Virus record (IMG/VR): IMGVR_UViG_3300020347_000580 | Location: 1-34,465 of that record | Direction: 5' to 3' (one strand) | Length of the DNA: 34,465 bases | DNA from: a virus | Shown: in pieces, positions 1,966 through 28,195 of the stretch | Numbering within the stretch: position 1 is the stretch's first letter | Layout of the letters: every line of letters begins with the position of its first letter | Translations under genes and position numbers: made by a program | The notes under the pieces: generated by a model | Database searches by the model: none | What the model saw: only the letters and a program-made list of their open reading frames with translations | What the model was told of the DNA's origin: nothing

Positions 1966-1966
1966 A

Positions 1967-3293: not shown

Positions 3294-3322
3294 GAAAACT
3301 TTCACTTTTTAGCGTGATTACT

Positions 3323-11485: not shown

Positions 11486-12113
11486 AAAGCGCGTCTCCCC
11501 AGCTTTCTGATTGCCATTCAACTGCAAGTCTTTTAAATCCAAATTCCTCAAGATACGAGTCTATTTCCTCAATCATAGGACAGCCTTCGTACACTTCGTC
11601 TCTGTTTACTTCTGCTATGACAAGCTGTATATTATTAAGCTTGTCGCCCATGCCTTTAAGAACTTCTAGCTCGTAACCCTGAACGTCTACGTTCAATAAG
11701 TTGTGTTCACTTATATCGAGTTGGTTTTCTTCTACGAATTTATCAAATTTTTTTACGTTGATAGATTCTTTTGAAGGAAATGTAACTTCTGGATGTTCTG
11801 TAAGATGTTTCTTAGGTGCTAAGATAGAGCTAGAAGCTCCTGCGCCGTTAGACACGCCGCCTTCTCTGTCAGAGATAAACATGCCTACCACATCTTCTTC
11901 TGACCCTAATGCTACATTAAAGACTTTTTCTTTAATGATGCACTTAGAATTTACAATATCAAAAAGTTTCTTCTGGGGTTCAAACAATATTGTATTTGTC
12001 AACCCTAGCGCTCTGTATTGGGATAGCTCTTCGCCTAAAAAAGCGCCCACATGAATCGCGCCTGTAATTTTTACACCTGTGTGTTGTTCAATAGCATTTA
12101 GATCAAATATCAT
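11472..12113 (-). CDS. FkbM-family methyltransferase
   Basis: This 213-residue SAM-dependent O-methyltransferase shows the FkbM pattern. IHVGAFLGEELSQYRALG (20-37) is motif I, ILFEPQ (about 42-47) ends the second strand, FNVALGSEE follows, and LLNVDVQGYELEVLKGMG (about 138-155) is the diagnostic FkbM block with D and E residues. FkbM proteins commonly methylate sugars in O-antigen and capsule clusters. The N-terminal part is intact and the length is normal. The ATG overlaps the preceding stop (ATGA). The acceptor glycan is presumably the one assembled by the surrounding glycosyltransferases, which is inference from position. Confidence 0.87.
   Translation of the reverse strand: MIFDLNAIEQHTGVKITGAIHVGAFLGEELSQYRALGLTNTILFEPQKKLFDIVNSKCIIKEKVFNVALGSEEDVVGMFISDREGGVSNGAGASSSILAPKKHLTEHPEVTFPSKESINVKKFDKFVEENQLDISEHNLLNVDVQGYELEVLKGMGDKLNNIQLVIAEVNRDEVYEGCPMIEEIDSYLEEFGFKRLAVEWQSESWGDALYVKR
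11494..11500 (-). promoter_or_regulatory. Ribosome-binding site GGGGAGA for the GT8-like gene
   Basis: GGGGAGA is eight bases before ATG 11485 and within the FkbM gene's last codons. It decides the start over the upstream TTG at 11551. Confidence 0.7.
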
Positions 12114-12952
12114 TTTAGTCCTTTTAGTATGTCAATTTCTGTATGTGGACACTTAATATCAGAAAAATCTAGCATATCTAGATCAATTCTACTGCCAGAT
12201 TCATATTTGTCAAGCAAAAACTCTGAACTATAATCATGCACTTCTCCAGATTTATTTTCGTGTGTCTTTTGCACTCTATTGTTGGGGCTATTTACCACAA
12301 CGCTATGCTCTGGAGCCATTATAAAGTTGGGGCCGTTTGTCCAAAATCTTTGTATTGTACTTTCTAAAACGTTTGGAGTATTTCCCCAATTATATCTGGG
12401 TTGTATAAAGCAAAGTTCGTCTATCATGTCTAATATTAAAGGCTTTCTGTAAATATGTCCATCTACAGACAAATCATAAGACCAGTAAGATCCATAGCAA
12501 TGAAAAGTTTTAGGCCAAGCTATCATACCGTTATCAGTCTTCCAACCCTTCTGGCAAGTATCAGGCCCAGTTTGTCCTGCGTGAGATCTTTCTACTATAT
12601 TTAAACCCATTCTTAAAGATAAGCAACTTAAATGTTGATCATTTAAAAAACTATAGTCATTACAGCTAAACTGCCTATAGAATATATCATCATCTGTAAA
12701 GAAACATATAAAGTTATTTTTAGCTCCGGTCACAGCGTGTAAGACATCTTTAAACAACGAGCATGACTGCTGCCAAAACTCTACATCTTGATGTTCTTCT
12801 TGTAGGGTTTCGTGAACTTTATGAAATTGTTCCGAGTTATTATGTATAACAATATTTTGGCTAGAATCTTTAAAGTTTTTCTTTATGCTGTTAAGACATA
12901 AGTCTAACTGAAGTGGTCTATCTTTACTGAATATGATCGAAGTAATCAACAA
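12110..12952 (-). CDS. Putative GT-A glycosyltransferase with DDD motif
   Basis: This 280-residue protein begins with a family 2-like strand (LITSIIFSKDRPLQLDLCLNS) and has CFFTDDDIFYR (83-93) where the DxD metal site is expected. The remainder, rich in Trp, His and Cys (for example GSYWSYDLSVDGHIYRK), is typical of the acceptor half of this fold but does not point to a known specificity. The start appears to be TTG at 12952, with AAGGA about nine bases upstream, inside the last 29 bases of the GDP-fucose synthase gene. The second TTG, one codon later, cannot be excluded. It may use the GDP-fucose formed by the gene in front, but that is only positional inference. Confidence 0.65.
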   Translation of the reverse strand: MLITSIIFSKDRPLQLDLCLNSIKKNFKDSSQNIVIHNNSEQFHKVHETLQEEHQDVEFWQQSCSLFKDVLHAVTGAKNNFICFFTDDDIFYRQFSCNDYSFLNDQHLSCLSLRMGLNIVERSHAGQTGPDTCQKGWKTDNGMIAWPKTFHCYGSYWSYDLSVDGHIYRKPLILDMIDELCFIQPRYNWGNTPNVLESTIQRFWTNGPNFIMAPEHSVVVNSPNNRVQKTHENKSGEVHDYSSEFLLDKYESGSRIDLDMLDFSDIKCPHTEIDILKGLK

Positions 12953-13889
12953 ACTTTTCCTTGTTTTTGTAGTACCAACTTACTGTATCGTGTAATCCTC
13001 TGTCCAAGCCTGTTTTAGACTCAAATCCCAATACCTTAGTTGCCCTAGATGTGTCTAGACATCTTCTTGGTTGTCCGTCTAGACCGTTTGTATTAAAGCC
13101 TATATACCCCTTATAGTTCATCATACGCCCAATTTTATTAGCTAAATCCTTTATTGTACACTCAGAACCAGTTCCTATGTTTATGGGGTGTGGAGTAGTG
13201 TCTATTTCTACCGCTTTTTTAATGGCTGTCGCACAGTCGTCGATATATAGAAACTCTCTACTGGCTTTTCCCGTACCCCAAAGCTCAACAACATCTTCTT
13301 TGTTATCAATAGCTTTGTCTATCTTTAATATGATAGCAGGAATCACATGACTAATCGCAGGATCAAAATGATCGTGCGGGCCGTACATATTTACAGGTAT
13401 AAGATTCGTGCAGTTAAGACCATATTGAGCGTTGTATGCAATCAACATCTCCATCAGAGCCTTTTTAGCAACTCCGTAAGGCGCGTTTGTTTCTTCAGGA
13501 TAGCCATTCCAAATATTGTCTTCTTTGAAAGGGACGGGCGTAAATTTAGGATAAGCACAGACAGTGCCGACCATTACAAACTTTTGAAGTTTACCGTACT
13601 TTCTGGCTGTTTCTATGAGATTCATACCCATAACCAAGTTTTCATACATAAACAAGCCCGGATTATCTTTGTTTGCACCGATACCGCCAACTCTAGCAGC
13701 TAGGTGTACAATCACATCTGGCTCATGCTCTTTGTATAAATAGTCAACTTGTTTTTGGTTTGTTAAATCGTACTCTCTTCTACCGCCAAGAGACACAACA
13801 TCATAGAACAAATTGTCTTTTAGGGTTTTGTTTACAGCTTTACCAAGAAAGCCGCTACCACCTGTAATAATAACTTTACTTTTGCTCAT
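12924..13889 (-). CDS. fcl: GDP-L-fucose synthase (GDP-4-keto-6-deoxymannose epimerase/reductase)
   Basis: This 321-residue short-chain dehydrogenase converts GDP-4-keto-6-deoxymannose to GDP-L-fucose with NADPH. It carries ITGGSGFLGKAV (8-19), AARVGGIGANKDNP (65-78), VGTVCAYPK (107-115) with T109 and C111, and the catalytic Y138-x-x-x-K142 in APYGVAKKA, followed by NLIPVNMYGPHDHFDP. All are hallmarks of this enzyme and the length is normal. GDP-mannose 4,6-dehydratase, which would supply the substrate, is not in this window, so it must be elsewhere in the genome or come from the host. The ATG overlaps the preceding gene by 14 bases. Confidence 0.92.
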   Translation of the reverse strand: MSKSKVIITGGSGFLGKAVNKTLKDNLFYDVVSLGGRREYDLTNQKQVDYLYKEHEPDVIVHLAARVGGIGANKDNPGLFMYENLVMGMNLIETARKYGKLQKFVMVGTVCAYPKFTPVPFKEDNIWNGYPEETNAPYGVAKKALMEMLIAYNAQYGLNCTNLIPVNMYGPHDHFDPAISHVIPAIILKIDKAIDNKEDVVELWGTGKASREFLYIDDCATAIKKAVEIDTTPHPINIGTGSECTIKDLANKIGRMMNYKGYIGFNTNGLDGQPRRCLDTSRATKVLGFESKTGLDRGLHDTVSWYYKNKEKFVDYFDHIQ

Positions 13890-14928
13890 TTAACGCATCC
13901 TTATAAGCTTTCAAAATACCAAAAGACAAATCTTCATAACCAAACTCTTTCATAATTGTTGCAATCCTATGAAAGCCTGTGTGGTTTTCGGAAACAAGCT
14001 TTTGCCCCTTGTACATAATTTCAGGCATGGATAACCTGCCCTCGTCCGTATTTAAATAGTGTTCAATTTTATCTCTAAAATCATTTGGAGAATCCGCAAT
14101 TACAATACCATCACCAAACATCTTGTATGCTTCTACATTATCACTAATACAGAAGCCACCCGCATACAGAATTTTAAATATTCTTTCATTTACATCTATG
14201 CCATATACCTGCGCGTGAGGCTCGCTTAGATTTGGACATATCTTAGCAGAAACAAATAAGTTTTTTACATCTTGGTCATCTATCAGGCCACAGTATTGAT
14301 TTACGCCCCAAGGTTGGTTGCCAAATATTTTTACATTGTAGCGATCAAGTGGATGTAGCAGTGGAGTAAGATAGCGGTCAATCACCTGACCCTTGTAGGG
14401 CCAGTAACCGCCCACAAAACCAATATCACATGTTAGCTTTGGATCGACCTGAGCGCCGCTGTAGACTGCTGTATCCGCACACATCATTAACGATACGGGT
14501 TTGATCCCGATGGTTTCAAAATAGTTATGAGTTCTTTTAATGTCGTCATCACTATAATGAATATGTACAAAGTCTGGTTTTCCTGTTTCGTCTTTAAGTT
14601 TTTTGAGTAATTCTTTTTCTTTTTTGGAGCAGAATAGAATGTTGTATTTTGATTTATCTACTTCCTTTTCTTGATCGCCCCAATCTCCAGCACGTAGACC
14701 AACTTTTAGGTGCGGCCTTTCATATATACATTTTATTAAAGCTTCGTCTAGGTTGTAGGATTGACCTAAAAACAAGTCTGGCTCAAAAGTGTCAAATATA
14801 TCAAACGCCGGAACTGTTTTGCAGTCCCATAGCATAACTTGATGTCCTGTGGCTAAAAAAGCATTAGCCCAAGCCATTCTTTGAAAATAGTGAGCGTGAC
14901 CACCATCACTAGAAATTAAAATTTTCAT
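13876..14928 (-). CDS. GT-B glycosyltransferase, CgeB/group 1-like
   Basis: This 350-residue protein has a two-Rossmann GT-B look. The start is KILISSDGGHAHYFQRMAWA (2-21), a first-domain substrate loop. CDIGFVGGYWPYKG (about 167-180) begins the second domain, and NERIFKILYAGGFCISDN (about 248-265) is the donor-binding region found in CgeB-type and other spore/maturation glycosyltransferases. No DxD is expected in this fold. There is no signal peptide or membrane span. Sugar specificity is unknown. It overlaps the upstream nucleotidyltransferase by 20 bases and the fucose synthase by 14, so it is embedded in the coupled operon. Confidence 0.75.
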   Translation of the reverse strand: MKILISSDGGHAHYFQRMAWANAFLATGHQVMLWDCKTVPAFDIFDTFEPDLFLGQSYNLDEALIKCIYERPHLKVGLRAGDWGDQEKEVDKSKYNILFCSKKEKELLKKLKDETGKPDFVHIHYSDDDIKRTHNYFETIGIKPVSLMMCADTAVYSGAQVDPKLTCDIGFVGGYWPYKGQVIDRYLTPLLHPLDRYNVKIFGNQPWGVNQYCGLIDDQDVKNLFVSAKICPNLSEPHAQVYGIDVNERIFKILYAGGFCISDNVEAYKMFGDGIVIADSPNDFRDKIEHYLNTDEGRLSMPEIMYKGQKLVSENHTGFHRIATIMKEFGYEDLSFGILKAYKDALNEQK

Positions 14929-15637
14929 TCTTTAAATCCTTTATACAATCTATCTCTATTATCGACATGTCTTTTGGTTCGTAGCATTCAAAATTAGCAC
15001 CCATAGAAATCATCTTATTTATTATTTCAAATGATAGAAGTTTCTTTTGACTTCCGTGAAGTTTCTGCAATATACTTCTTAGTATTTTTAACTCTTTACC
15101 AGTAACAAATGCTATTTGACACCACTTAGTAGGAAGTCCGTAAGACAATACTGTAGCTTTATTATTTTGTATCGTCACCCCTATTTCTTTTGGCTTCATC
15201 ATATCTTTATTGTCTACCAGCAGAAAGGACTTTTTGTAATTTAGATTTAAAAAAACCTTTTCATTAAAATATAGATCTCCATGAAAAAATAATATGTTTT
15301 TTTTGTTGGTATTATTTACCGCCAATCTAAGACTTTCTGAATTATTTGTTTCGTAATATATTTGGTTTTCTACCACTCTTAATTTACCAGATATTTTTTT
15401 AATTATCTTTTCTATATTGTATCCAAAAACGCCCACTATTTCCTGATTGTTTATATTGCTATTGATAATATCAATTTGATGCTCTATTAACGATTTAGAT
15501 CCTATCTTTATTAAGCTTCGTGGTTCATTTGATTTTATTCTACTTCCAACTCCCGCAGATAATATAATAACTGTCATATCATTCTTATTATTTTCAGCAT
15601 TTATAGAGGCTGTGATCTGTCTAGTAAATCTACCCAC
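14909..15637 (-). CDS. Sugar nucleotidyltransferase (NTP_transferase family), AT-rich
   Basis: This protein resembles small sugar-1-phosphate or phosphocholine nucleotidyltransferases. VIILSAGVGSRIKSNEPRSL is the nucleotide-binding loop and KIGSKSLIEHQI the following segment. ILFFHGDLYFNEKVF holds the metal-binding Asp. Two starts are possible: GTG at 15637, overlapping the preceding TAG by one base, gives 242 residues, and ATG at 15577 gives 222 and places the conserved loop at the usual N-terminal position. The shorter form is more natural for the fold, but neither has a strong Shine-Dalgarno sequence. The protein is noticeably richer in Asn, Lys and Ile than its neighbours, which hints at a separate origin. 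Confidence 0.68.
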   Translation of the reverse strand: MGRFTRQITASINAENNKNDMTVIILSAGVGSRIKSNEPRSLIKIGSKSLIEHQIDIINSNINNQEIVGVFGYNIEKIIKKISGKLRVVENQIYYETNNSESLRLAVNNTNKKNILFFHGDLYFNEKVFLNLNYKKSFLLVDNKDMMKPKEIGVTIQNNKATVLSYGLPTKWCQIAFVTGKELKILRSILQKLHGSQKKLLSFEIINKMISMGANFECYEPKDMSIIEIDCIKDLKNENFNF

Positions 15638-16425
15638 TAGCGACTACCTAATATTTGGGCGTGTTGCTGGAAAATCTCTGTAGTCATTTTCATAGACTGA
15701 TTTTGACCGCTTTCGTTTACAATAGAAAGAGATTCTGGGACGTGACACATGATACAATAATGTGACAACCGCAACCATAAATCGTAGTCTTCTGTGCAGC
15801 CTATAAAGCCTTGACTCGCGGGACCGTGTAATCTACTGTCAAAGATTTCACCATTAGGAAGAATTACTTTTTCTAAGTATTCTTTTTTAATCAGGGCATT
15901 GCTGTGAACCATACAGCTTTGTGAAAGCCCCCTTCTGCAATATGCGCCTTTTGCTTCGTATTTTACATAGTGCTTGTCGCCATAGCTTCTATGGATGTCA
16001 TAGTCACCATAAGCCACTCCGACTTCTGGATACTCCATTAGTTTTTCTACTAGTTTTTCGACTTTAGTGGGCTTGTAAGCGTCATCAGCATCCAAAACGC
16101 CAATAATATCGGCCCAGTCCCAGCACATGTCAATCGCTACATTACGAGCGACACTGGCTCCAGAGTTTTCGATTCTTTTCCTAAAGAGGACATTATCTGT
16201 AATTTCCTCGACAGTGTTCATCATTGGATTTCCGAATGGGTCTTTATCTTCAAAATATCTTATGCTTGAAATCTTTTCCCAAGAATCGTCAGTCGATCCA
16301 TCGTCCACGACATACAGGCGAATTTCACCCCTATAAGTCTGCCAGCCGAGGACACTTTTCATAGCGGCTTCAATATAGTCACCATAGTTATAATTCGCAC
16401 AAATAATAGCTACTTTAGGAAGCAT
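15637..16425 (-). CDS. Family 2 glycosyltransferase
   Basis: This 262-residue inverting GT-A enzyme shows a textbook family 2 layout. VAIICANYNYGDYIEAAMKSVL (5-26) is followed by YVVDDGSTDDSW (38-49), the nucleotide-binding aspartates; then NSGASVARNVAID (87-99) and the metal-binding DADD in IGVLDADDAYKP (108-119). The late segment GCTEDYDLWLRLSHY supplies the acceptor-side E-D catalytic region (ED at the start of the motif). It acts in the cytoplasm with no membrane span. The ATG overlaps the previous gene by 11 bases. Donor sugar is unknown. Confidence 0.92.
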   Translation of the reverse strand: MLPKVAIICANYNYGDYIEAAMKSVLGWQTYRGEIRLYVVDDGSTDDSWEKISSIRYFEDKDPFGNPMMNTVEEITDNVLFRKRIENSGASVARNVAIDMCWDWADIIGVLDADDAYKPTKVEKLVEKLMEYPEVGVAYGDYDIHRSYGDKHYVKYEAKGAYCRRGLSQSCMVHSNALIKKEYLEKVILPNGEIFDSRLHGPASQGFIGCTEDYDLWLRLSHYCIMCHVPESLSIVNESGQNQSMKMTTEIFQQHAQILGSR

Positions 16426-17230
16426 TAAATTCCTCCCAAGTAATAAGAGTTTCGCCAGTATCGTCTTTCATGTCTTCTACCTTCTCTAGAAACGGTCTTC
16501 CATCAAATTCTAATTCACCGTCATTTGTTTCGTATGCTTTTTTGTGGTTGCCATTTAACATCTTAAACAATGGAGTAGAAAATAGCAGACCGTTAAAATC
16601 ATCATATGGCTTAACAACAGATAGCCTCTTCATATCTACGTTTATTCTTTGATTAATTTTTTCAATCAGTTCTTCATCAATACTTTCTCCAGATGTCGTT
16701 GTGTATATCCACCCATTCTTAGCGTGTCTAAAGCACTCATCAACAAGAAACATTTTGTTTTCTGGCATTTCAGAAACTTTAATTAAATGATGCAAAGTCT
16801 TTTCATGATCAAATTCATTTACAAGCATTTCCTGTATCTCTGTGTTATACTCTGTCTTATCTGTAACAACCATCAAGTATCTGGCCTGATGTAGCGTCTG
16901 GTTTTTAATATCCTTAATAGTTTTTTCAAGGTTTTTCATAGCTACTAATTTTTCGGCAGTGTCTTTGGATGTATCTAAAATAATTAAAAATCCAATTCTT
17001 GGCACGACCTCTTTTAAGGCTACTTGATGCCTTTTTTTATATTGTTCTAAAGATAGTTCAGAAAGCCATTCTTCTGGTCTATATGTGTTACAAAACCTTT
17101 GCAGAACATAACCCCCATCTTCTGTATCGCAAATCCCAAGTTTTTCAGATCTATAAAGTTCGCATCCGGTTTGTTGTTCCTCTTTCTCTATTGCAAAGAC
17201 ACACCCTTTACACGATGTTTGCGCTCTCAT
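16415..17230 (-). CDS. Cys-cluster protein with degenerate GT-A-like domain
   Basis: This 271-residue protein is not confidently assigned. The first 50 residues carry a cysteine set, C7-x-x-C10, C23, C34 and C47, in contexts CKGCVFA, QTGCELYR and RFCNTYRPEEW that look like a metal or Fe-S site; similar N-termini occur in marine phage proteins as far as I recall. Residues about 78-250 read like a family 2 glycosyltransferase fold: a hydrophobic strand FLIILD, then LEKTIKDIKNQTLHQARYLMVVTD, and NGLLFSTPLFKMLNGNHKK near the end. The DxD position is occupied by IYTTTSGESID, with no acidic pair. It may bind rather than transfer sugar. It is flanked by glycan genes with ATGA coupling. Confidence 0.5.
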   Translation of the reverse strand: MRAQTSCKGCVFAIEKEEQQTGCELYRSEKLGICDTEDGGYVLQRFCNTYRPEEWLSELSLEQYKKRHQVALKEVVPRIGFLIILDTSKDTAEKLVAMKNLEKTIKDIKNQTLHQARYLMVVTDKTEYNTEIQEMLVNEFDHEKTLHHLIKVSEMPENKMFLVDECFRHAKNGWIYTTTSGESIDEELIEKINQRINVDMKRLSVVKPYDDFNGLLFSTPLFKMLNGNHKKAYETNDGELEFDGRPFLEKVEDMKDDTGETLITWEEFNAS

Positions 17231-17643
17231 CTTGCTCTCCTTATTTTTAATACAGATAGTGAAGATTCAGATATATACTTCTGCTGTACTTCAAAGTTTT
17301 CCGGTATTATAGATTGTAGCTTGTCTGTATTCATTATAGATTTTTTAGAACTTTCAAAAAATACTTCATTAAAATAAGCTAAATCGACATCGCCCCTCGT
17401 ATACATTCTAAATAAAATATTACAGTCAGGCTCAATTATAGTAACTTCACAGCCAATTCGACACTTTTTTAATACCTCTTTTATTGCCTGCTCCAATTCT
17501 ACAAAAGAAAAAGAAGAAAGGAAACAATCTATCGTTAAAGAAGTTATTTCACTATCAGAAAACGTTCTATCTAGTGACGCTAAATTAGAATGGTGCTTAA
17601 AAGAAGAGTCTGGCGAAGGCTTGTTTGACAAATATACTTTCAT
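17227..17643 (-). CDS. Small protein, possibly a degenerate methyltransferase-like domain
   Basis: The 138-residue product is not clearly recognised. Its middle (SLTIDCFLSSFSFVELEQAIKE, given here in part) and the following CRIGCEVTIIEPDCNILFRM recall the second half of a class I SAM-dependent methyltransferase, where a helix is followed by a strand with the pattern L-R-x-G-G-x-x-x-I. The end, VQQKYISESSLSVLKIRRAR, resembles the last strand pair of such proteins. No glycine-rich SAM loop precedes it, so it would be inactive or act with a partner. It sits between a glycosyltransferase and the Cys-cluster protein, joined by TAATG and ATGA overlaps. Confidence 0.45.
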   Translation of the reverse strand: MKVYLSNKPSPDSSFKHHSNLASLDRTFSDSEITSLTIDCFLSSFSFVELEQAIKEVLKKCRIGCEVTIIEPDCNILFRMYTRGDVDLAYFNEVFFESSKKSIMNTDKLQSIIPENFEVQQKYISESSLSVLKIRRAR

Positions 17644-18662: not shown

Positions 18663-19746
18663 TTAAAATCTCCTTGAGCTTCAATCCTATTTCTTTATGA
18701 GAAAATTCTGACGCCCTTTTTAAAGCTTCTCGACTTTCTTCTGTAGCAATTTCTGTATTCCATTTCATAAACACTTCTCTCATAGAAACCATTAAATCCT
18801 CTAGGTCAATTTTTCTCCATTTTTCATTAGCGGTATACAGATAATCTATTGTTGACATAGCGCCAAAACAGGGAATTTCTGAAGACTTAACAGCAGACCC
18901 AGAACAGAAGTCATCCATGCCAGTACCTTCTGTGTAGATTACTGGAATCCCCATAGCCATAGCCTCTAAAGCAGGAATACAAAAACCTTCACCCCGACTA
19001 GGCATTACAAATGAGTGGCACTGAGAAATAGTGGACATGTAATCTTCTTTTCCTAGTTGTCCACATATAACAACTTCTTCTTTGTATTCTTTCCTTAGCT
19101 TTAAACCCTGTTTAATCTGCTTAAAATAATTTTGAACGTAATCTAATGACTGCTGAGAAGTTTTAATATATAGGTTTACAGGTTCATCTGGTTCAAACTC
19201 CATATGAAAGGCTTTAACCAAGGCTTGTATGTTTTTTCTTTCTACAAACTCTCCAACAAAAACAAAATTAAACGTGTTGATTAGGTTGTCTATCTTGGAA
19301 CCTTGATTTAAATACTTTACAGAATTGTATTTGGAAATATCTAAAGAGTGTGGAGCAATTTTTACGGGCTGGGTAATTTCGCTTTGTATACATGCGTTTT
19401 TGCAGGATTGGGTTGGAACCCAAATTTCATCCATCAAGTTAGCATGATGCTGCCAAGAGCTTTCAATAAAGTTACTGGTTTCCGTAGCTATGAAACCTAT
19501 GTTTTTGAATTTCGAGTCGTAAGAATATAGATGGGGAAGTGTATGCTGAATACAGATGTCACAACCAACTTCTGAATTATTTTCAAGCTCTAATATTCTA
19601 TCGGGACAGCTTCCGGCAGAATTGTTAAAGGTTATAGCGCGAGGCACAACCTCTACTCCAACAGCATCTAGCGCTAGTATATTATTTATACATGCATTAG
19701 CCCATCCTGTTCCGTCTTTATAATTTCCTATGTATAAGACTTTCAT
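18652..19746 (-). CDS. Family 4 glycosyltransferase (GT-B)
   Basis: This 364-residue retaining GT-B enzyme has a complete donor site. FVFVGEFVERKNIQALVKAF (161-180) begins the second domain, and MPSRGEGFCIPALEAMAMG (248-266) holds the E253-x7-E261 pair typical of family 4. The following IPVIYTEGTG is the strand that lines the donor phosphate. The first domain begins with KVLYIGNYKDGTGWANACI, including the acceptor-side GTGW loop. It is soluble with no obvious membrane anchor. It is flanked by two further GT-B genes, so three consecutive GT-B enzymes may add successive sugars. The start is an ATGA overlap. Confidence 0.9.
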   Translation of the reverse strand: MKVLYIGNYKDGTGWANACINNILALDAVGVEVVPRAITFNNSAGSCPDRILELENNSEVGCDICIQHTLPHLYSYDSKFKNIGFIATETSNFIESSWQHHANLMDEIWVPTQSCKNACIQSEITQPVKIAPHSLDISKYNSVKYLNQGSKIDNLINTFNFVFVGEFVERKNIQALVKAFHMEFEPDEPVNLYIKTSQQSLDYVQNYFKQIKQGLKLRKEYKEEVVICGQLGKEDYMSTISQCHSFVMPSRGEGFCIPALEAMAMGIPVIYTEGTGMDDFCSGSAVKSSEIPCFGAMSTIDYLYTANEKWRKIDLEDLMVSMREVFMKWNTEIATEESREALKRASEFSHKEIGLKLKEILNDG

Positions 19747-21386
19747 TTAGCACTCATTTCCTGTTGAATTTTTTGTATCCTAATATGTTCCCAGTTATTT
19801 AATTGATTTCTAAAATTAGCCATCTCTTCACAGGCTTGCTGTATAGAAAATGGAGAATTGCTACTTTGATTTTTGATATGGGATTCATTAAAGTAAAATT
19901 GCTTATCCATGTTTTCACATCTGTAACCAAAAGATACGTCTCTTAGTACTCTTTTCCACAAATATCCGCCTATCCATTCCGGCTTATGAAGTATATTTGT
20001 AAATATATAATTAACAGCATCAGTAGTAGAAGACATACCTTGCGGTAGCGAAGGGCTAGGTGCTGGAGCGTTTAGGGGAGAATACCAAGTGGTTGCAGGA
20101 TCTTTATTTTCTACTGTTTTAAAATGTTTAGCCCAAGCATCCGCAGCTTTATCCCAGCTATAATTTTCTAAAGCTCTAGCTCTAGTATTAGCACCCATCT
20201 CTGGAAGTAAATCCCTTTTTTCATGTAGCTGTTTTAGTAAATTGATAAAAGCCTCATTATTTGGTATAGCTCTTTTGCATCCCGTTTCACATTCTACATA
20301 GTAAGAACTTGGAATAACTCCAAATCCTCCAATGTTTTTTACAACAGACTCCATAGCTGAATAGTCTACAGAGATTACCGGAAGTGCAGCATTAGCCGCT
20401 TCCAGTTGAGGCATACCAAAACCCTCGCTGTTCGCGTATTGAACGTAGACATCAAAACAATTATAAACAGCGGCAAGTTCTTCATCCGATATAGGATTAG
20501 CTATGCCTACCATGTGGTTATTTAAAGACTGACAGCTTGAGCAGTTTTGTATTGAGTTTTGAAAGAAGTCTACGGAAACTTTTCCGCAGCTTTTGCACTT
20601 ATAAGTCACCAAAACTCTACTAGCTAGTCCGCTTTCATGAATTAGTTTAGGTAAATCCCATCCTACATCTGGATAATACGTGTGACAGTATAAAAACGCA
20701 TTAGGATCTTGTGTCTGATCAAGAAATTTTCTAAACGACTGCATCAAGTCTGGATATAGTTTTCTTTTTTGATTCCTCATAACTGTTCCGACAATAAAAC
20801 AATCAGGAGAAACTCCCATGCTAGCTTTATGCGCGGGCTTGTCTGGAGCGGGTGTAAAACATTTGCTTGCTGCCGGTGATGCTATGTCTACAAAATTTAT
20901 ATCGTCGCATTGATTAATCATTGTATCTCTTCCAAATTCAGAGTAAGCAAAAACTGAATCAGCAGAAGCGTATGTATTGATCCATTGATCCGCCTGTGGC
21001 GTAGCGTCAACAGTTGGCATGATTGACCAATGAAAGAAATCTCTAAAGGGGGATCGTTGCTCAAACTCCATCATCCACCAGTCTCTAATATCCATAACGA
21101 CATCAGGCTTAAAATCTAGCAACACAGAATTGAATGATTGATCTCCAAATTGGGCAGTTGGATTCGATTTATATGCTGCGTATTCTGGGGAGTCTGGACT
21201 TGGCTTATTGCCATAAAATTTCCAAGGTAGATTTTTTTCTTGTGACTCAGATGTTTCTGCGTAACAGCCTAGTTCCGCCACCTCGAAATCGTCTACTTGG
21301 CAAAGTCTGGATAGAACTTCTTTGGTGTATACGGAATATCCGGTAGCATACCAAGAAGCTTCCGTACAGAAAAGTATTTTTTTCAT
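19743..21386 (-). CDS. Large GT-B glycosyltransferase with inserted zinc ribbon
   Basis: This 547-residue protein is a family 4-like glycosyltransferase with an unusual insertion. The first domain starts KILFCTEASWYATGYSVYT. The second domain begins near residue 196 (FIVGTVMRNQKRKLYPDLM). Just where the donor domain continues, a four-cysteine zinc ribbon appears: C264-x-x-C267 and C282-x-x-C285. The E321-x7-E329 donor motif follows in NSEGFGMPQLEAANAALP. About 120 C-terminal residues after 430 lie outside the fold, with Pro-rich and helical parts. A related architecture appears in some phage glycosyltransferases, from memory. The gene directly follows the polymerase C-terminal gene with an ATGA overlap, so glycan and replication genes share one coupled transcript here. 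Confidence 0.83.
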   Translation of the reverse strand: MKKILFCTEASWYATGYSVYTKEVLSRLCQVDDFEVAELGCYAETSESQEKNLPWKFYGNKPSPDSPEYAAYKSNPTAQFGDQSFNSVLLDFKPDVVMDIRDWWMMEFEQRSPFRDFFHWSIMPTVDATPQADQWINTYASADSVFAYSEFGRDTMINQCDDINFVDIASPAASKCFTPAPDKPAHKASMGVSPDCFIVGTVMRNQKRKLYPDLMQSFRKFLDQTQDPNAFLYCHTYYPDVGWDLPKLIHESGLASRVLVTYKCKSCGKVSVDFFQNSIQNCSSCQSLNNHMVGIANPISDEELAAVYNCFDVYVQYANSEGFGMPQLEAANAALPVISVDYSAMESVVKNIGGFGVIPSSYYVECETGCKRAIPNNEAFINLLKQLHEKRDLLPEMGANTRARALENYSWDKAADAWAKHFKTVENKDPATTWYSPLNAPAPSPSLPQGMSSTTDAVNYIFTNILHKPEWIGGYLWKRVLRDVSFGYRCENMDKQFYFNESHIKNQSSNSPFSIQQACEEMANFRNQLNNWEHIRIQKIQQEMSAK

Positions 21387-22921
21387 ATTTGGCTTGCTTT
21401 ATTTATTATTATGGAAGTTTTGTCTTTTTTAGATACTTCGCCGTTAATTAAAACAGTATTGCCTTCAATAAGAACGTCTTTATGTTCCTTGTAGGCTTCT
21501 GGAAAAACCGTAACAGAATCAAGCTCACCGCTAGAATCTTCAACCGCTAGAAACGCCATCAACTGTCCGGGGCTTTTACCCTTCTTTGTCTTGTACTCTC
21601 TTAGAGAATTTATATGAACAGCAAGCGCTACTTTACCTTTTATAGTACCTTTAGATACGTCTTTGCACATAAAATTTTGGCTACTCATAACATAATCTGT
21701 TTTTGAGCAAGTTATAGAGCAACCGAGAAACTTAAACTCTTGATCCGCTATAGTCGCCGCACTGTCTGAAAGATCATAAAATGGACTATCTAAAGACTTC
21801 TTTATATCTTTTACGGTTTCTATTCTTCTTGATGTGATCTTAAAATTTTCAGTTAGCATTTGTATATTTTGGCTAAGAGATAGTTTACTATCGTAATTCT
21901 CTTCTATGTACTTCTGCTCTCTGGCTGAAAGGTTTTTCCAACTGTCAAACTCATATAGCATTTCCTGTCTGTGCTTACTGTTGTTTGCGCCATTAAAAGC
22001 TCCAACAGAAATCAAAGATATTACAGCCCTTTTGTTTAGCTTACAACCATTTATAACTTTTACAAGAACGTCCATCCAGCTATATTTTGATATATCGTGC
22101 TGAGAAACAAGATCCTCTATCTTTTCACACTCTTTTGTCCCAACGTTCTTGATATGTCTTAGGCCAAAGTAGATTTTATCTTTAGAATCTGTAAAATTTG
22201 TATACATATATTGCAATCTAGGAGGGTAAACCTCTATTCCTTCAAACTTCGCATCCATTACAAGCTGCTTGATTTCAATCTGCGGCTTAGGTTTCCTATC
22301 CGACCTGTTAAGGTAAGACGTATAAAAGTCAAGCATACGATAGTTTTTGCAGTATGCGCTCCAGTATGCGTTGATCGCATAAGAAACGGCGTGAGACTTA
22401 TTAAACGCATAGCGATTAGATTTCTCAATCCAAGAAAAAATTTCTTCAGCAATATCTTTGTTTACAATTCCCTGTTTTTCCGCACCTTCTAAGAAAGACT
22501 TCTTAACTTGCTCCATCAAGTCCGCCTTCTTTTTACCGATAGCTTTCCTTAGTCCATCAGCTTCTTTTAGATCAAAACCAGCTAGCCTTTGAGCCATCAT
22601 CATAGACTGTTCTTGATAAACAAGAACTCCATAAGTCTCTTTCAAGATAGGCTCGATAGATTCATGTTCGTAAACAACGGGATCTAGATTAGCTTTTCTG
22701 TCGGCGTAATGCTGGGTCATACTTTTACCATCTTTAAACGCCTTCAAACATCCCGGCCTGATCAGACTAAGCAAAGCTGCTAGCTCGCTTATGCTTCTTG
22801 GACTAACCTTCTTAGCCCAGTGTCTTCCCAAGTTAGACTCAAGTTGAAATACTCCCTTGGTGCGTCCTTCACAAATCAAATCCCAAACATTATCATCGTT
22901 AAAATCGTTGATATCAAACAT
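21383..22921 (-). CDS. dnaE: DNA polymerase III alpha subunit, C-terminal half (fingers to OB fold)
   Basis: This gene encodes the second half of a split DnaE-type replicative polymerase, 512 residues. It starts at the linker before TKGVFQLESN (21-30), which matches TTAVFQLES of E. coli alpha. It then has the fingers (LIRPGCLKAF, YGVLVYQEQSMMMAQ, RKAIGKKK at 125-132), the YAFNKSHAVSYA segment (171-182), a helix-hairpin-helix near 250 (RHIKNVGTKE) and a C-terminal OB fold (about 410-512, ending SIIINKASQI). It has no catalytic aspartates; those are in the other half. I set the start at ATG 22921, with GGGGA at 22927-22931 and an 8-base overlap with the exonuclease stop. A TTG ten codons further upstream is less likely. 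No clamp-binding motif was identified. Confidence 0.93.
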   Translation of the reverse strand: MFDINDFNDDNVWDLICEGRTKGVFQLESNLGRHWAKKVSPRSISELAALLSLIRPGCLKAFKDGKSMTQHYADRKANLDPVVYEHESIEPILKETYGVLVYQEQSMMMAQRLAGFDLKEADGLRKAIGKKKADLMEQVKKSFLEGAEKQGIVNKDIAEEIFSWIEKSNRYAFNKSHAVSYAINAYWSAYCKNYRMLDFYTSYLNRSDRKPKPQIEIKQLVMDAKFEGIEVYPPRLQYMYTNFTDSKDKIYFGLRHIKNVGTKECEKIEDLVSQHDISKYSWMDVLVKVINGCKLNKRAVISLISVGAFNGANNSKHRQEMLYEFDSWKNLSAREQKYIEENYDSKLSLSQNIQMLTENFKITSRRIETVKDIKKSLDSPFYDLSDSAATIADQEFKFLGCSITCSKTDYVMSSQNFMCKDVSKGTIKGKVALAVHINSLREYKTKKGKSPGQLMAFLAVEDSSGELDSVTVFPEAYKEHKDVLIEGNTVLINGEVSKKDKTSIIINKASQI

Positions 22922-23606
22922 AAATTTCCCCGTTGGCAAACGTCTTTTCAAACTTTACCTTCTTTAATAACGTCCTTTGTAACTTCATAAATTTAATCAT
23001 CAGATTAGCAGTATCTTTTACGTCTTGCAAAGCATCGTGAGCATTGTCTTTGCTGGCTTGACTCATGCCAAAATAGTCGCGCATATAATCCATGTTATAC
23101 TTTTTAACTTCTTGATTGTTTTCAAACCAACAGTAAATATGTTGCATAACATCAATTGTATAGATGGGGTTAAAGATTCCCTGTCTACCATTCTTTGCGT
23201 GAGTAGGTCCGTATTGCTGACACATACGTTCTACGATAGGCATATCGTATCCATTGATATTATATCCAGCAGCTATCGGGGCGTAGTAACTTGTTTTCTT
23301 AAAGTTGTACTTGTCGCAGAACTGAGAGAACTTACGCCAAACAGTTTTGGGCAATGGTGCTTTTGCGAGTTTGTCTCTTGTCTTTCTTGTGATTTTTAGT
23401 GCTTCGTCCTCTAGTGGATCAACTCCTGCCTTAATAGCCTTGTCATCGTCTATAATTGGCCTGATTTCGCTGTTGAATGTGCCTCCGGGCTGAAGTTCAA
23501 GCTTCCTAGCATGGATCGCTACAGCAGCGATCTGAGTAGGTTGACAGCTATATGGGTTTCTGCCACCAGTCTCAAAGTCAAATACTATTATGTCTCTATA
23601 ATTCAT
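22914..23606 (-). CDS. DnaQ-like 3'-5' proofreading exonuclease (DEDDh)
   Basis: This 230-residue exonuclease would remove misincorporated nucleotides during synthesis by the split polymerase that surrounds it. The DEDDh residues are all visible: D10 and E12 in VFDFETGG, D121 in NINGYDMPIVERM, and H190 with D195 in AHDALQDVKDTA. A short C-terminal tail (about 201-230, KFMKLQRTLLKKVKF) is basic and hydrophobic and could bind the polymerase, much as epsilon's tail binds the alpha PHP domain; this is a hypothesis. The gene is joined to the 72-residue gene by ATGA and overlaps the second polymerase gene by 8 bases, so the three products are made in proportion. Confidence 0.92.
   Translation of the reverse strand: MNYRDIIVFDFETGGRNPYSCQPTQIAAVAIHARKLELQPGGTFNSEIRPIIDDDKAIKAGVDPLEDEALKITRKTRDKLAKAPLPKTVWRKFSQFCDKYNFKKTSYYAPIAAGYNINGYDMPIVERMCQQYGPTHAKNGRQGIFNPIYTIDVMQHIYCWFENNQEVKKYNMDYMRDYFGMSQASKDNAHDALQDVKDTANLMIKFMKLQRTLLKKVKFEKTFANGEIYV
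22927..22931 (-). promoter_or_regulatory. Ribosome-binding site GGGGA for the polymerase C-terminal half
   Basis: GGGGA precedes ATG 22921 by five bases and lies within the end of the exonuclease gene. It shows that the second polymerase half has its own translation start, so it is a real split gene and not a frameshifted read-through. Confidence 0.72.
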
Positions 23607-23821
23607 GCTCGTTTTTCCTTTAGTTCTATAAATTTATTAACAGCGTCATCTATATTTTTATATAGCTTGTATTCTTTATGCTTGTCAGACCAAACTTGAT
23701 ATTCATTATCTGCAACAAGTCTTTTATTATAATTTCTTAGGTTGCAAATATGAACCTTATTTGATTCAATAGAGCAGCCAGAAAATATTACGGACTTATA
23801 ATCTTCTGCTGTAGCCTTCAT
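23603..23821 (-). CDS. Unknown 72-residue protein between the polymerase halves
   Basis: I do not recognise this protein. It is charged and mostly polar, with YKSVIFSGCSIESNKVHICN at residues 8-27, basic RNYNKRLVADNEYQVW in the middle and an amphipathic C-terminal helix (DDAVNKFIELKEKR). It has no membrane span. It has a good ribosome-binding site, AAAGGAG, formed by the last codons and stop of the polymerase N-terminal gene, and it ends in an ATGA overlap with the exonuclease, so it is very probably expressed. Its place between the two polymerase pieces makes a bridging or accessory role in the holoenzyme plausible, but nothing in the sequence proves it. Confidence 0.7.
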   Translation of the reverse strand: MKATAEDYKSVIFSGCSIESNKVHICNLRNYNKRLVADNEYQVWSDKHKEYKLYKNIDDAVNKFIELKEKRA

Positions 23822-23822
23822 T

Positions 23823-25394
23823 TTATTCTCCTTTGTTTGTTATTTCCATAATTTTACTTAATAGATCAATAGCTAAAATGTCAAACTTGACATGCCCCTG
23901 AGATTCTAAATCATTCATTTCAAAGCCAACTATGTTTTTACCCGTGGCGTCTTTTACCATAGGACAAACATCTCTAAGCTTAAATTTTGATATGATTACA
24001 CCAGCGGGGTGTTTTCCTTGAGATTTATTTGTGCCTTCAATATTAATAGCCTGTTCAAAAAACTTAGCTAGATCTCCTTCTAGTTCGCCTTCTTCATTTA
24101 TCTTACACCATCCCTTTAGATCTTCTGATTCATTTTCCAATGCCCATCTTATGATAGACCTATCTTCCTTGTCCATCAACTCTAGTTGATCAGAGATAAG
24201 CGCTTCGTCTGGTATACAATCTGTTATCTCATTCATCTCAGAAAATGACACAGCATCACTGATTCTTAACACCTCTTTTAACGCAGACCTTCCTTGTAAT
24301 CTGCCGAACGTAATCATCTGAGAAACATTTTCTTGACCGTATTTTTCCTTGATATAGTCAATAACTTCATCCCTATGCTCCGCAGGAACATCTACGTCAA
24401 TATCGGGAAGGGAAATATAATCATCTGTGTTTCTTCCTTCGTTATAGAACCTCTCAAAAATTAGTCCGTACTCGATAGGATCTACCTCTGTAATCCCTAG
24501 TAGATAAGAGACTAAGCATCCAGCAGCAGAGCCTCTTCCCGGTCCAGCAATCCATCCTTTGTCCTTAACATGGTTTACAATATCCTGCACAATCAAAAAA
24601 TATCCAGATAGTCCAGCCTTAAAAATAACCTCTAGTTCTGTTTTAACTCTATCAAGATATTCTTGTTTGTCTACATCTAAATAAACCTTCTTAGCAGGAA
24701 TCAATTTCTTTTTCCATCCATGACGACAAAGTTCTTTGAGGTATTCGTTCTGATTGAACCCTTCTGGACAATCAAAGTCTGGTAGCATGGGTGGTCCTGC
24801 AAGATCATACTCTTCACACATATCAGCTATCTTGGAAGTTACAGACTTCTTTTTTGTATTTGGTAGATACCAGTTGTCATCCCCATCAAAAAATTGTGAA
24901 AACTCATGATCCACACCCTCTAACTTTGCAAGCGTCTTTTTAAGTTTACTACATAGCATAATCCTATGACAATCTGCATCTTCTTTATCTACATAGTAGA
25001 TAGCCTCCTGAACATAATCTATCTTGATATGGTTGGATTTGAATATTTTAGCGAATCCGTTTTTCTTTGGGGTTACGCATATAACATTACCATTATCCGC
25101 TATTTCTTTTAGAACTTCTACGTTTTGATTTGATACATATTTAACCAAGTCAAACCAACCATCTTTGCTTTTCGCATAAAGAAGGAACCCGTCGAACTCA
25201 CATCCGATGATAGGTTTTACGCCCCGCTTTTTACACTCTTGATGAAATTCTACAGCGCCAGAGACAGTGCCAAGATCAGCTATGCCGCAAGCCGTGTAGC
25301 CGTACTCATCACATCTTTTTGCTAGTTTATCTGTTTTGCAAAACCCTTGCTGTAAGCTAAAGTGTGTTTTACAGTTTATCGGAGTCCAATTCAT
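23823..25394 (-). CDS. dnaE: DNA polymerase III alpha subunit, N-terminal half (PHP, palm and thumb)
   Basis: This 523-residue protein is the catalytic half of a split DnaE-type polymerase. Residues 1-70 are a PHP domain (SGAVEF and KPIIGCEF are clear) whose first metal motif is altered: CKTHFS stands where relatives have H-x-H/D. GPGRGSAAG (284-292) is the palm nucleotide-binding loop. The catalytic aspartates are D331 and D333 in PDIDVD and D505 in VKFDIL, equivalent to E. coli D401, D403 and D555. GRLQGRSALKEV and KHPAGVIIS complete the palm. It ends 18 residues after the third aspartate, at the palm-fingers linker, with a stop codon that doubles as a ribosome-binding region for the next gene. 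No intein sequence is present at either end. Confidence 0.94.
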   Translation of the reverse strand: MNWTPINCKTHFSLQQGFCKTDKLAKRCDEYGYTACGIADLGTVSGAVEFHQECKKRGVKPIIGCEFDGFLLYAKSKDGWFDLVKYVSNQNVEVLKEIADNGNVICVTPKKNGFAKIFKSNHIKIDYVQEAIYYVDKEDADCHRIMLCSKLKKTLAKLEGVDHEFSQFFDGDDNWYLPNTKKKSVTSKIADMCEEYDLAGPPMLPDFDCPEGFNQNEYLKELCRHGWKKKLIPAKKVYLDVDKQEYLDRVKTELEVIFKAGLSGYFLIVQDIVNHVKDKGWIAGPGRGSAAGCLVSYLLGITEVDPIEYGLIFERFYNEGRNTDDYISLPDIDVDVPAEHRDEVIDYIKEKYGQENVSQMITFGRLQGRSALKEVLRISDAVSFSEMNEITDCIPDEALISDQLELMDKEDRSIIRWALENESEDLKGWCKINEEGELEGDLAKFFEQAINIEGTNKSQGKHPAGVIISKFKLRDVCPMVKDATGKNIVGFEMNDLESQGHVKFDILAIDLLSKIMEITNKGE

Positions 25395-26283
25395 CTTTTA
25401 AAACATTCCTCAAATTTTTAAGATACTCTTTAGACGGTTCTAGGTTTTGATGTCTTTGGTGTAAGATATCTTTCATCCTATTAGCTAGGGCGTCTACATT
25501 CAATACGTTATTATTATACATGGCTAAACCCTCAAGTAAACCCCTACATTCACCCCCTTGTAAGAAATTCAACGATTTAGACAAGGTGTTGTCAAGCACA
25601 TCCCAAGCGCCCTTGAAAAATGAAGCCTCTTCATAATACCAGAACTTTGGAATCGCATCTACAACTGGTATAGCGCCCATTAATGTAGATTCAAAAAATC
25701 TAAACGTCTCCATACTGTAAGCTCCCGCAGGACATAGAGATAGTTTAGACTCTGATAAAAGCTCCATATACTCTTTCGGCTCTAAACCCTTACCGAATCC
25801 ATCCGTAAACTCAATTTTGTATTTAAACTTATCGCCAGATTCAGAGACCAGCTTATCTAGACCTCTTTTAAAACAATCCCTAGTTCCGGTGTGGGGTATC
25901 TGTCCCACAAAACTAAAGTCATATTTTCTTTGAGATAATGGCTTTATTTCAATATCTCTATAGTCATCCGTAAACGGACCCAGCGGCAAGGGGTACGTTA
26001 TAGGAGTTTCCAAACAGTGATTCCATCTATCTAGAGCGTGATAATGCTGAAAGATTAAAAATATATCATCATTAAAAAACCCTCTTGGAACTTGGTGATT
26101 CTCTCGCGAGGTTGCTATTAAAATGTTTAGCTTGTTATCGTTAAACTTAGGAACATCTTGTGAATCATACTTTACAATAACTCTGTATTTATCATCTAGC
26201 ATCTCGCTAAATTTAGTAGCTACATCTAGTGTAAACTTGTTTCCTAAATCAAACTCGTTATTTAAATCAATTAATTCTGCCAT
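25369..26283 (-). CDS. Exostosin-like (GT47-type) glycosyltransferase in the replication module
   Basis: This 304-residue protein is foreign to its surroundings. KYDFSFVGQIPHTGTRDCFKR (124-144, shown as two parts: KYDFSFVGQ and HTGTRDCFKR) and YMELLSESKLSLCPAGAYSM with METFRFFESTLMGAIPVVDA match the donor domain of exostosin/GT47-like glycosyltransferases, in which the last conserved glutamate contacts the nucleotide sugar. The first half is less typical. It lies between a Cas4-like nuclease and the polymerase, joined on one side by a TAATG overlap and on the other by a 26-base overlap. It could act on the same glycan as the left island, or on viral DNA or protein. The donor is unknown. Confidence 0.72.
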   Translation of the reverse strand: MAELIDLNNEFDLGNKFTLDVATKFSEMLDDKYRVIVKYDSQDVPKFNDNKLNILIATSRENHQVPRGFFNDDIFLIFQHYHALDRWNHCLETPITYPLPLGPFTDDYRDIEIKPLSQRKYDFSFVGQIPHTGTRDCFKRGLDKLVSESGDKFKYKIEFTDGFGKGLEPKEYMELLSESKLSLCPAGAYSMETFRFFESTLMGAIPVVDAIPKFWYYEEASFFKGAWDVLDNTLSKSLNFLQGGECRGLLEGLAMYNNNVLNVDALANRMKDILHQRHQNLEPSKEYLKNLRNVLKDELDSDKL

Positions 26284-27305
26284 TATCCCGGAGCCTCATA
26301 GTATCCTATGTTAAAACCTTCGTTAGTACATTCTTTAAGTGTTTTTTCATGACCTATTGTATGTAGCTTTTTCTCTACATACTCACACATGGTAGTATTC
26401 GTCCCCGGCCAATTATTTTTATAAAAGTGACAAAGTTTTTGGCATCTAAAATCCCTACGACTATTGCTAATTGGTCTGGGTTTGATGTTATCTTTGATCT
26501 CTTCATATCTTTTTTTAAGCATTTCCAAGAATCTATCTTGGTCTGATTTGTCGAAGCACATGCTAAACGGTCCACCGTCTCTAGTAAAGAAGATAGACAT
26601 AATAGCCTGTTCGTAGTCTGGATAAAGTTTTGATATAGCATAATTATATAATAGTAACTGCGCATCGTCAAGAAGTTTTTCGTATGTTTTTACTTCTCCC
26701 GTAGCCCAGTTTTTTCTTTGTCCTGTCTTCCAATCGACTACCTCAATTATATCGTCATCTATCTTAGTAACTAGGTCAATAGTTCCCTTGATAGCTAAGT
26801 TGCCCTTGATGGTAGTTCCATCTGGCATTTCATATTCATATTTAGCCCAATCTTCTTCAATAGCAATATCGAAAGTAGGTTCTGTGTCAACTATATCTCT
26901 TTTTCTTGGGTCGAATTGACCATCATTAAAATTTAAAGCTGTCTCTATTTGTTTCTCGCAAAACTTAAAATCCGCAGGGTAGTATTTATGACTATCTGTA
27001 GATCCATAGTGTTCGTAACTACGGCTTAGTAGATCGGCAACAAGTTTTTTAGTTTTTAGTTTTCTTGGCGTGAAACTAACTTCTCCGATAGCGTCATCCA
27101 TAATTGACAACTCTTTCTTGTCTGGATTGTCTTGTAGCTCTTTTTTACAAGATGCTAAACATTCCATTACTTTGTGACAGGCAGTTCCTAGCTGGGCCTT
27201 TTTTCCCGATTCTGACCTATATCCTAAAACATAAGTCATAAAATACTGCATTTGGCAAAAATCATAATTACCATAGCTGGAGGATCTGATGTATGTTACT
27301 ATCAT
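26283..27305 (-). CDS. Cas4/RecB-type PD-(D/E)XK exonuclease with Fe-S cysteines
   Basis: This 340-residue nuclease has the PD-(D/E)XK core in the Cas4/RecB arrangement: H44 in GTACHKVME, D177 in IKGTIDLVT and the D191-W-K193 of VVDWKTGQ, followed by a QLLLYNYA helix with the glutamine (DDAQLL) of motif QxxxY. Four cysteines, C17 near the start and C288, C292 and C307 at the end, match the split Fe-S cluster site of Cas4 and AddB. It probably processes DNA ends for recombination and replication with the nearby RecA. No CRISPR array or other cas gene is seen. ATGA overlap with the kinase. Confidence 0.85.
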   Translation of the reverse strand: MIVTYIRSSSYGNYDFCQMQYFMTYVLGYRSESGKKAQLGTACHKVMECLASCKKELQDNPDKKELSIMDDAIGEVSFTPRKLKTKKLVADLLSRSYEHYGSTDSHKYYPADFKFCEKQIETALNFNDGQFDPRKRDIVDTEPTFDIAIEEDWAKYEYEMPDGTTIKGNLAIKGTIDLVTKIDDDIIEVVDWKTGQRKNWATGEVKTYEKLLDDAQLLLYNYAISKLYPDYEQAIMSIFFTRDGGPFSMCFDKSDQDRFLEMLKKRYEEIKDNIKPRPISNSRRDFRCQKLCHFYKNNWPGTNTTMCEYVEKKLHTIGHEKTLKECTNEGFNIGYYEAPG

Positions 27306-28195
27306 TCTGACTCTCTAAACTGATGGATACCGCCAACAAGAACCGGCTCATCTTCTGATGGGGACTCTGGGATTGGAGATCCTAACCATCCCCAGTCTTC
27401 TACTGCTTTTATCAACTCTACATGCGTCTCTTGAATAGACATATCTCTGTTATCAATCACCGCATCAAACTCAAAATCTTCATCAAAAGCATTTTCGCTT
27501 TTATGTGAGTCTTTATGATTTGATCGCATTAGCTTAACCACTTTACCACCAGCATTTTGAATGGCTTCAGCCTCGTTTGGATACCTGCAATCATCAACTA
27601 CTGCAAGCAGCGGACCTTCTGATTCTACATCTTTGACAAGCCTAGAAACCCAAATCTCTTCATAGATTTTTCTACAGACTTCTGAACCAAAGAACTGAAG
27701 AAACTCTCTACCTGTCATCTTTCCCTTTTTATGATACATTAAATCGCCATTATCAATAAGCTTTTTAACAGGTGCGAGTTTGGCAGTTTTAGCGCATGTT
27801 ATGACTCCCGGCATAGACTCCCAAGTGATTGGTATTTTGGCGTTCTTCTGTATGTCAGAACCCCTTACGTTTTCTTCTTTAATGTCAAAAAGTTCTGTTG
27901 CAATATTTTTTAGCGGATCTGCAAAAGAATAGCTTTTTACATAAGGCCACATATTATAAACAGCCCATTCGGAAAACTCTAAGTCTACTCTCTTAACATC
28001 TAGAAGGGCGTGTCCTTGTTCCTTGTCGCCCTTAGAGTCAATAAACTCTGTAGCTACAACAAGCTCACCCTTGTCTGTTATGCTAAAGCCTGATATTATG
28101 TTATGAGATTTAAGCTGATAGCCATGTATAAAGTTACTACATGTAGTCTTACCGGACTGTTTGTTTCCGGCTATGGCTAAAATTCTAGTAGTCAT
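27302..28195 (-). CDS. Deoxynucleoside monophosphate kinase (T4 gp1-like)
   Basis: This 297-residue P-loop kinase would phosphorylate dNMPs for phage DNA synthesis. The Walker A motif is AGNKQSGKTTCSNF (9-22). KSYSFADPLKN follows a shared pattern of this family (S-F-A-D-P-L-K), GREFLQFFGSEVCRKIYEE gives the next block, and VVDDCRYPNEAEAIQNAGG is the C-terminal D-D-x-R-x-x-N-E-A motif, all typical of phage dNMP kinases. A longer middle insert (about 35-70) is unusual. The C-terminal 25 residues are Pro/Glu-rich. It sits with primase and helicase, joined to primase by an ATGA overlap. Confidence 0.87.
   Translation of the reverse strand: MTTRILAIAGNKQSGKTTCSNFIHGYQLKSHNIISGFSITDKGELVVATEFIDSKGDKEQGHALLDVKRVDLEFSEWAVYNMWPYVKSYSFADPLKNIATELFDIKEENVRGSDIQKNAKIPITWESMPGVITCAKTAKLAPVKKLIDNGDLMYHKKGKMTGREFLQFFGSEVCRKIYEEIWVSRLVKDVESEGPLLAVVDDCRYPNEAEAIQNAGGKVVKLMRSNHKDSHKSENAFDEDFEFDAVIDNRDMSIQETHVELIKAVEDWGWLGSPIPESPSEDEPVLVGGIHQFRESE

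Follow-up and report, generated by a model that had tools for sequence, protein, structure and literature searches.

A phage DnaE-type DNA polymerase III alpha subunit encoded in two genes, divided at the palm-fingers loop and enclosing an exonuclease gene

The virus record IMGVR_UViG_3300020347_000580, a 34,465-base metagenome contig that represents a fragment of an uncultured phage and was analysed over its whole length (hereafter the window), encodes a C-family (DnaE-type) DNA polymerase III (Pol III) alpha subunit in two genes, very probably the phage's own replicative polymerase, whose two polypeptides would assemble non-covalently into one active enzyme. Four open reading frames lie on the minus strand at the positions given in a first-pass annotation of the sequence, tightly packed in the order N-half, small gene, exonuclease and C-half (Table 1). 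A single nucleotide separates the N-half from the small gene, the small gene and the exonuclease overlap at an ATGA, and the exonuclease overlaps the C-half (from its ATG) by 8 nt, with Shine-Dalgarno-like sequences for the small gene (AGGAG), the exonuclease (AAGGA) and the C-half (GGGGA); the own starts and coupled stop/start arrangement claimed earlier for the two in-between genes are therefore present, and coupled translation would deliver the subunits together. The longest reading frame of the C-half (21383-22951, 522 aa) opens with a TTG at 22951, which was dropped in favour of the ATG at 22921: the 512-aa protein is the better reading because GGGGA precedes this ATG and because it corresponds to the start in L013, a related locus where another gene sits between exonuclease and C-half. 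Upstream of the locus lie RecA/UvsX-like, DnaB, primase, dNMP kinase and PD-(D/E)XK genes and a GT47-like glycosyltransferase gene; downstream are glycosyltransferases. The window also has, at 299-17643 on the minus strand, a long cluster of sugar-nucleotide and surface-glycan genes, including a nucleotidyltransferase, RmlD and epimerase families, a DAHP/KDO-synthase family member, a KdsB-like cytidylyltransferase, a C-methyltransferase, PhyH and 2OG oxygenases and several glycosyltransferases.

Table 1. Coordinates of the split polymerase locus in the window and of related C-halves with an extra N-terminal segment
Feature	Position	Strand	Evidence
N-half of Pol III alpha, 523 aa	23823..25394	-	PF07733 + PF02811; alignment to 2hnh; conserved across split clade
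Small gene, 72 aa, predicted alpha-beta4-alpha	23603..23821	-	Homologues in 84/96 split loci; dN/dS 0.03-0.06; model pLDDT 83
DEDDh (DnaQ-like) 3'-5' exonuclease, 230 aa, probable proofreading subunit	22914..23606	-	PF00929 E 7e-14; phrog_192 polymerase exonuclease subunit; motifs in 93/96 loci
C-half of Pol III alpha, 512 aa from ATG 22921	21383..22921	-	PF17657, PF14579 (HHH_6), weak PF01336; alignment to 5fku + 2hpi; start-codon context
Ribosome-binding-like GGGGAAA before C-half ATG, within exonuclease gene	22922..22933	-	Sequence; L002, L004 and L010 have the same
C-halves with CGC-containing segment (related loci)	L030 10835-12451; L037 10723-12327; L041 10739-12331; L047 10568-12199; L036 12665-14551; L052 8872-10497		

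The N-half comprises a remnant PHP domain, the palm and the thumb (PF07733, E 1e-71; partial PHP match to PF02811, E 2e-16) and holds all three catalytic aspartates, D331, D333 and D505, which align with D401, D403 and D555 of the E. coli subunit (2hnh). All split loci retain these residues, L003 included, whose N-half departs from the PDxDxD pattern yet has the aspartates within LDSDVD. The first gene was said to end just past the third catalytic aspartate, and it does so, 18 residues after D505. N-halves come in two kinds, long (606-651 aa, 31 loci) and short (515-545 aa, 64 loci, among them the window's): the long ones keep the PHP motifs HxH (28/31) and DHG (30/31), whereas the short ones, from which about 110 residues are missing, have HxH in none of 64 and DHG in two. 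The near absence of both motifs indicates that the PHP metal site has been lost beside a retained, separate DEDDh exonuclease; no intact N-terminal PHP domain is present in the window's subclade, where the metal ligands are gone, and one is found in the long-N relatives. The PHP domain of E. coli alpha is likewise degenerate, and it binds epsilon, so a gutted PHP does not bar the window's protein from being a DnaE-type Pol III alpha and makes it plausible that the exonuclease perhaps docks on the remnant, as epsilon does in E. coli.

The C-half, which from its ATG spans E. coli alpha from about residue 583, contains fingers, HhH and OB in DnaE order, with Pfam matches to PF17657 and PF14579 (HHH_6); the OB match at its C-terminus (PF01336) is weak and below the cutoff, and an OB is present in the predicted structure of a fused relative, L038. 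No C-terminal tau-binding domain follows. What had been called a whole DnaE-type alpha subunit in two genes is thus indeed in two genes (523 and 512 aa) but is not whole, because the PHP domain is gutted and the tau-binding domain absent; the related statement that almost nothing is lost applies to the cut itself and not to the rest of the protein. Between HhH and OB, where a beta-clamp pentapeptide would be expected, the window has QEMLY, the Q of which varies among relatives, and the C-halves share no clear clamp motif. Those of basal subclades open with an extra CGC-containing segment (FxCGCxF-like; Table 1), possibly a small metal-binding knuckle, and in L036 (12665-14551) about 70 additional residues lie within the fingers and split the Pfam fingers match in two.

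Together the halves tile TIGR00594 (positions 199-568 in the N-half and 587-1020 in the C-half), and on the fused L038 protein the last residue of the N-half corresponds to 626 and the first of the C-half to 628, a loss of about one residue. In a model of L038 (pLDDT 91.8, pTM 0.83) that matches solved Pol III alpha structures at Z ~36-45, the cut falls in a coil or loop joining two helices. Splicing could in principle bridge such a cut, as introns can occur in phage polymerase genes, and as cyanobacterial DnaE, also in two genes, is interrupted at another site (near FNKSH) by intein halves that ligate the protein. A putative split-intein PolB has been reported in phage MIJ3 (PMC6892783). We nevertheless consider it extremely unlikely that the window's halves are joined by a split intein or by a self-splicing intron holding the small and exonuclease genes. 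The C-half begins at the homologous residue next after the end of the N-half, leaving zero residues for an intein; YAFNKSHA, which contains the FNKSH site, is uninterrupted in the C-half, and intein halves of the cyanobacterial type are absent from the window, which bears out the first-pass annotation on both the site and the missing intein. The single base between N-half and small gene, together with the overlaps elsewhere, leaves no space for an intron core, and it is this lack of space that argues against an intron, not the Rfam search of 19500-27500 in the window, which gave no match at E<=1: that negative is weak because the intron-like dnaE interruptions of L173 are also unmatched by Rfam. 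The latter contig (JAGCPW010000095.1, from a Eubacterium sp. MAG; 3437-9669) carries dnaE in at least three pieces with unrelated open reading frames between them, broken just before the PDIDxD motif and between the F and N of YGFNKSH, an arrangement that looks like introns with endonuclease genes.

Relatives were collected from viral contigs and species genomes, and among loci with both parts 134 were scored as split and 23 as fused. The first-pass annotation had proposed a search for the same gene order, and split loci with an exonuclease between the halves were recovered as 96 distinct sequences from many metagenomes, a set that leaves out Tenacibaculum phage Larrie (L069; cut elsewhere) and the multi-piece L173; identity to the window's C-half ranges across split loci from 99% down to about 37%. 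Fused loci belong to one phage lineage (L038, L039, L045, L049 and L057), to outgroup phages and to bacterial-bin contigs. The two halves always co-occur in loci long enough to show both. Between the window and its close relatives dN/dS is about 0.04 for the N-half, 0.03-0.06 for the small gene, 0.01-0.03 for the exonuclease and 0.04-0.06 for the C-half, and both halves are thus under strong purifying selection. Sixteen related contigs (59-169 kb, maybe incomplete, so that another polymerase could lie outside them) each carry a single gene with fingers and lack PolA, PolB and a beta clamp. Since the window is itself a metagenome contig, the split might have been an assembly or sequencing error, the explanation that the first-pass annotation had singled out as able to undo it, or a decaying pseudogene; the chance of either is negligible, because the same order recurs in 96 loci, dN/dS is 0.01-0.06, catalytic residues are kept and the 16 contigs offer a single fingers gene and neither PolA nor PolB. 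These comparisons support a split that is real and ancient within a large uncultured phage clade. When the proteins of the window, L041 and L038 were searched by tblastn against 50,697 phage records, none from this clade was found, all matches lying below 60% and the best at about 27-36%, and a search for the Gp23 capsid protein, which gave no match in any control genome, carries no information. Four split-clade contigs (L155, L157, L158 and L159) were binned into MAGs assigned to SAR202, Chitinophagia and Lokiarchaeota, and are either host hints or mis-binned phage.

That the halves form one non-covalent enzyme is by far the best reading because of the fused lineage and because no other polymerase is seen in the related contigs; a fused homologue, a 1,139-aa protein with the exonuclease gene immediately upstream, is strong indirect support. 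In such an enzyme the N-half would contribute the palm, the thumb and all catalytic aspartates, and the C-half the fingers, HhH and OB. The lack of a beta-clamp gene in the contigs, and of a clear clamp motif shared by the C-halves, counts against this reading. The other possibility is that the two proteins are not one enzyme, one half having a separate role such as repair while the phage uses the host replicase. Something akin to this has been suggested for the minimal split Pol III alpha of group 2.2 jumbo phages, in which two proteins thought to reconstitute one enzyme may partner PolB in one-strand synthesis or in repair (PMC7824862). For the window we regard it as very unlikely: each half holds only some of the domains that build a single active site, and the halves share the same strong selection, occur together in every locus long enough to hold both and are fused in one lineage; the contigs show no other polymerase.

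The DEDDh exonuclease, with its DxE, NxxxxD and HxAxxD motifs in 93 of the 96 split loci, is by its position in the locus the probable proofreader of the split polymerase. For the small protein, which the first-pass annotation thought might help the halves to pair, the distribution is more equivocal. Homologues occur in 84 of the 96 split loci, always between N-half and C-half, and the fused loci checked have none; its dN/dS is low, and the split polymerase of the Rossellomorea phage phiT1 (see below) also holds a small open reading frame (49 aa), albeit one unmatched by the small-protein profile. Against this, 12 of the 96 lack it, it is absent in basal lineages, and the slot holds an unrelated small open reading frame in L030, L037 and L041 and no gene in L047; the protein is thus no general assembly factor, and a dedicated role for it in assembling or stabilising the split polymerase seems unlikely, if worth keeping in view. 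It has no Pfam, PHROG or NCBIfam family, its best BFVD match (E 0.016) is an unnamed viral protein, and its best PDB match, YkuJ, was rejected as an identity, with a Z of 6.5 in the range of common arrangements. We give little credence to a more elaborate proposal, in which the split is a maintained design that has the proofreader and, mostly, the small protein made between the halves for an ordered palm-exonuclease-fingers assembly, the small protein stabilising or regulating the seam and being dropped on re-fusion. The seam between the halves is a tolerated insertion site: of the 96 loci, 12 carry extra sequence between N-half and exonuclease and 25 carry it between exonuclease and C-half. 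Seven of eight small inserts tested at the latter place are endonuclease-VII-like (PF02945); other inserts include a methyltransferase, sugar-related genes (judged by sequence) and a T5orf172-type protein.

When DnaE sequences of other phages and of bacteria serve as the root, the fused lineage falls within the split clade with the short-N group as its neighbour, and an unrooted helicase tree gives it the same neighbour. The constraint that all split sequences group together cost 24, 16 and 37 log units, respectively, across three sets of taxa (AU p 0.071, 0.117 and 0.005), so that a fused-first history is rejected under the densest sampling (p 0.005, PHP columns omitted) and unrejected under the sparser ones. 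Because the fused lineage nests inside the split clade, these trees favour, but do not settle, a re-fusion of the halves in one lineage. The split itself probably arose when the exonuclease gene inserted into a dnaE that was still in one piece, at a seam where genes, many of them endonuclease-VII-like, continue to be inserted; one lineage would later have re-joined the halves, with the exonuclease just upstream. The window's subclade has lost about 110 residues along with the PHP metal site.

A cultured phage carries a cut at the same place. In Rossellomorea phage phiT1 (PV767480), for which a literature search found no paper, alpha is divided into gp20 (573 aa) and gp18 (469 aa) with gp19 (the 49-aa frame) between them; gp20 terminates in LKVIQNSVDQINQGVAV and gp18 opens with MFDILDIPLDDAKTYKLLCDGNTSGVFQLES, the same junction as in the window. 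phiT1 resembles the window in the palm-fingers loop that is cut, in a C-half starting MFDI and in the small open reading frame in between, and differs in having no exonuclease there, in the small frame itself and in grouping with other phage DnaE. Its place in the tree is among the outgroups, nearest to MTATph1 with modest support (80/82), and MTATph1 is also its best other match among phage records (36%, ranking by identity-weighted coverage); on these two grounds the phiT1 split is probably independent of that of the split clade. Opening of the palm-fingers seam seems to have occurred two or more times, each time at this loop, and to have been reversed once.

Split phage polymerases were already known, and what is new here is the junction, the gene order and the apparent evolutionary reversal; a search of the open-access literature returned other kinds of split polymerase and none like the window's, which is distinct from each of them because family, junction, gene order or mechanism differs. 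With the bacterial DnaE-type subunits of E. coli (2hnh), Taq (2hpi) and M. tuberculosis (7pu7) it shares fold, domain order and catalytic aspartates, but it is in two genes, has a short PHP without metal ligands (in its subclade) and no tau-binding C-terminal domain. As a precedent for such pairing, the halves gp43A and gp43B of the T4-like Aeromonas phage 25 are reported to purify together and to have activity without splicing, their split being attributed to a homing endonuclease or an untranslated insert (PMC2988022). Both cases put a replicative phage polymerase in two genes; gp43A/B, however, is a PolB with another junction, whereas the window's protein is C-family by Pfam, NCBIfam and fold, and endonuclease-VII-like genes occur as additional inserts in some, not all, of the split loci. 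In the jumbo phages (Iyer 2021) the minimal Pol III genes are distant from each other, lack other Pol III domains, place the Mg-binding residues in the C-terminal unit and have PolB alongside; the window has adjacent genes, the aspartates in the N-half and no PolB in the 16 related contigs. Polymerases of OM43 phages are split with a small unknown open reading frame (PMC10580990). Larrie (a Cbastvirus) likewise has Pol III alpha in two adjacent genes, but its cut precedes PDIDSDF and thereby leaves the catalytic aspartates, unlike in the window, in the second gene. The tail of its first gene (locus at 3701-7281) is non-homologous (EYQDRPLYIVTTDTGDELQFPEGTLIRV...NLEEGDTIIKY) and might be an intein-like remnant.

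Bacterial chromosomes are copied by C-family replicases, which are also drug targets. The existence of a natural two-piece version, old and intein-free, means that a replicative enzyme can be opened at the palm-fingers seam. This version provides biochemistry with a ready-made split polymerase, for which phiT1 offers a cultured phage for work on assembly, and the role of the PHP domain becomes testable, since its metal site has gone while a separate exonuclease has stayed. It also cautions that, in a large phage clade, only half of the polymerase is seen by annotation pipelines and single-gene markers. DnaE-type polymerases were found in more than 1,200 phage records (MTATph1, Curly and others), nearly 300 of them Pseudomonas and about 260 Mycobacterium phages, where older surveys had listed only a handful.
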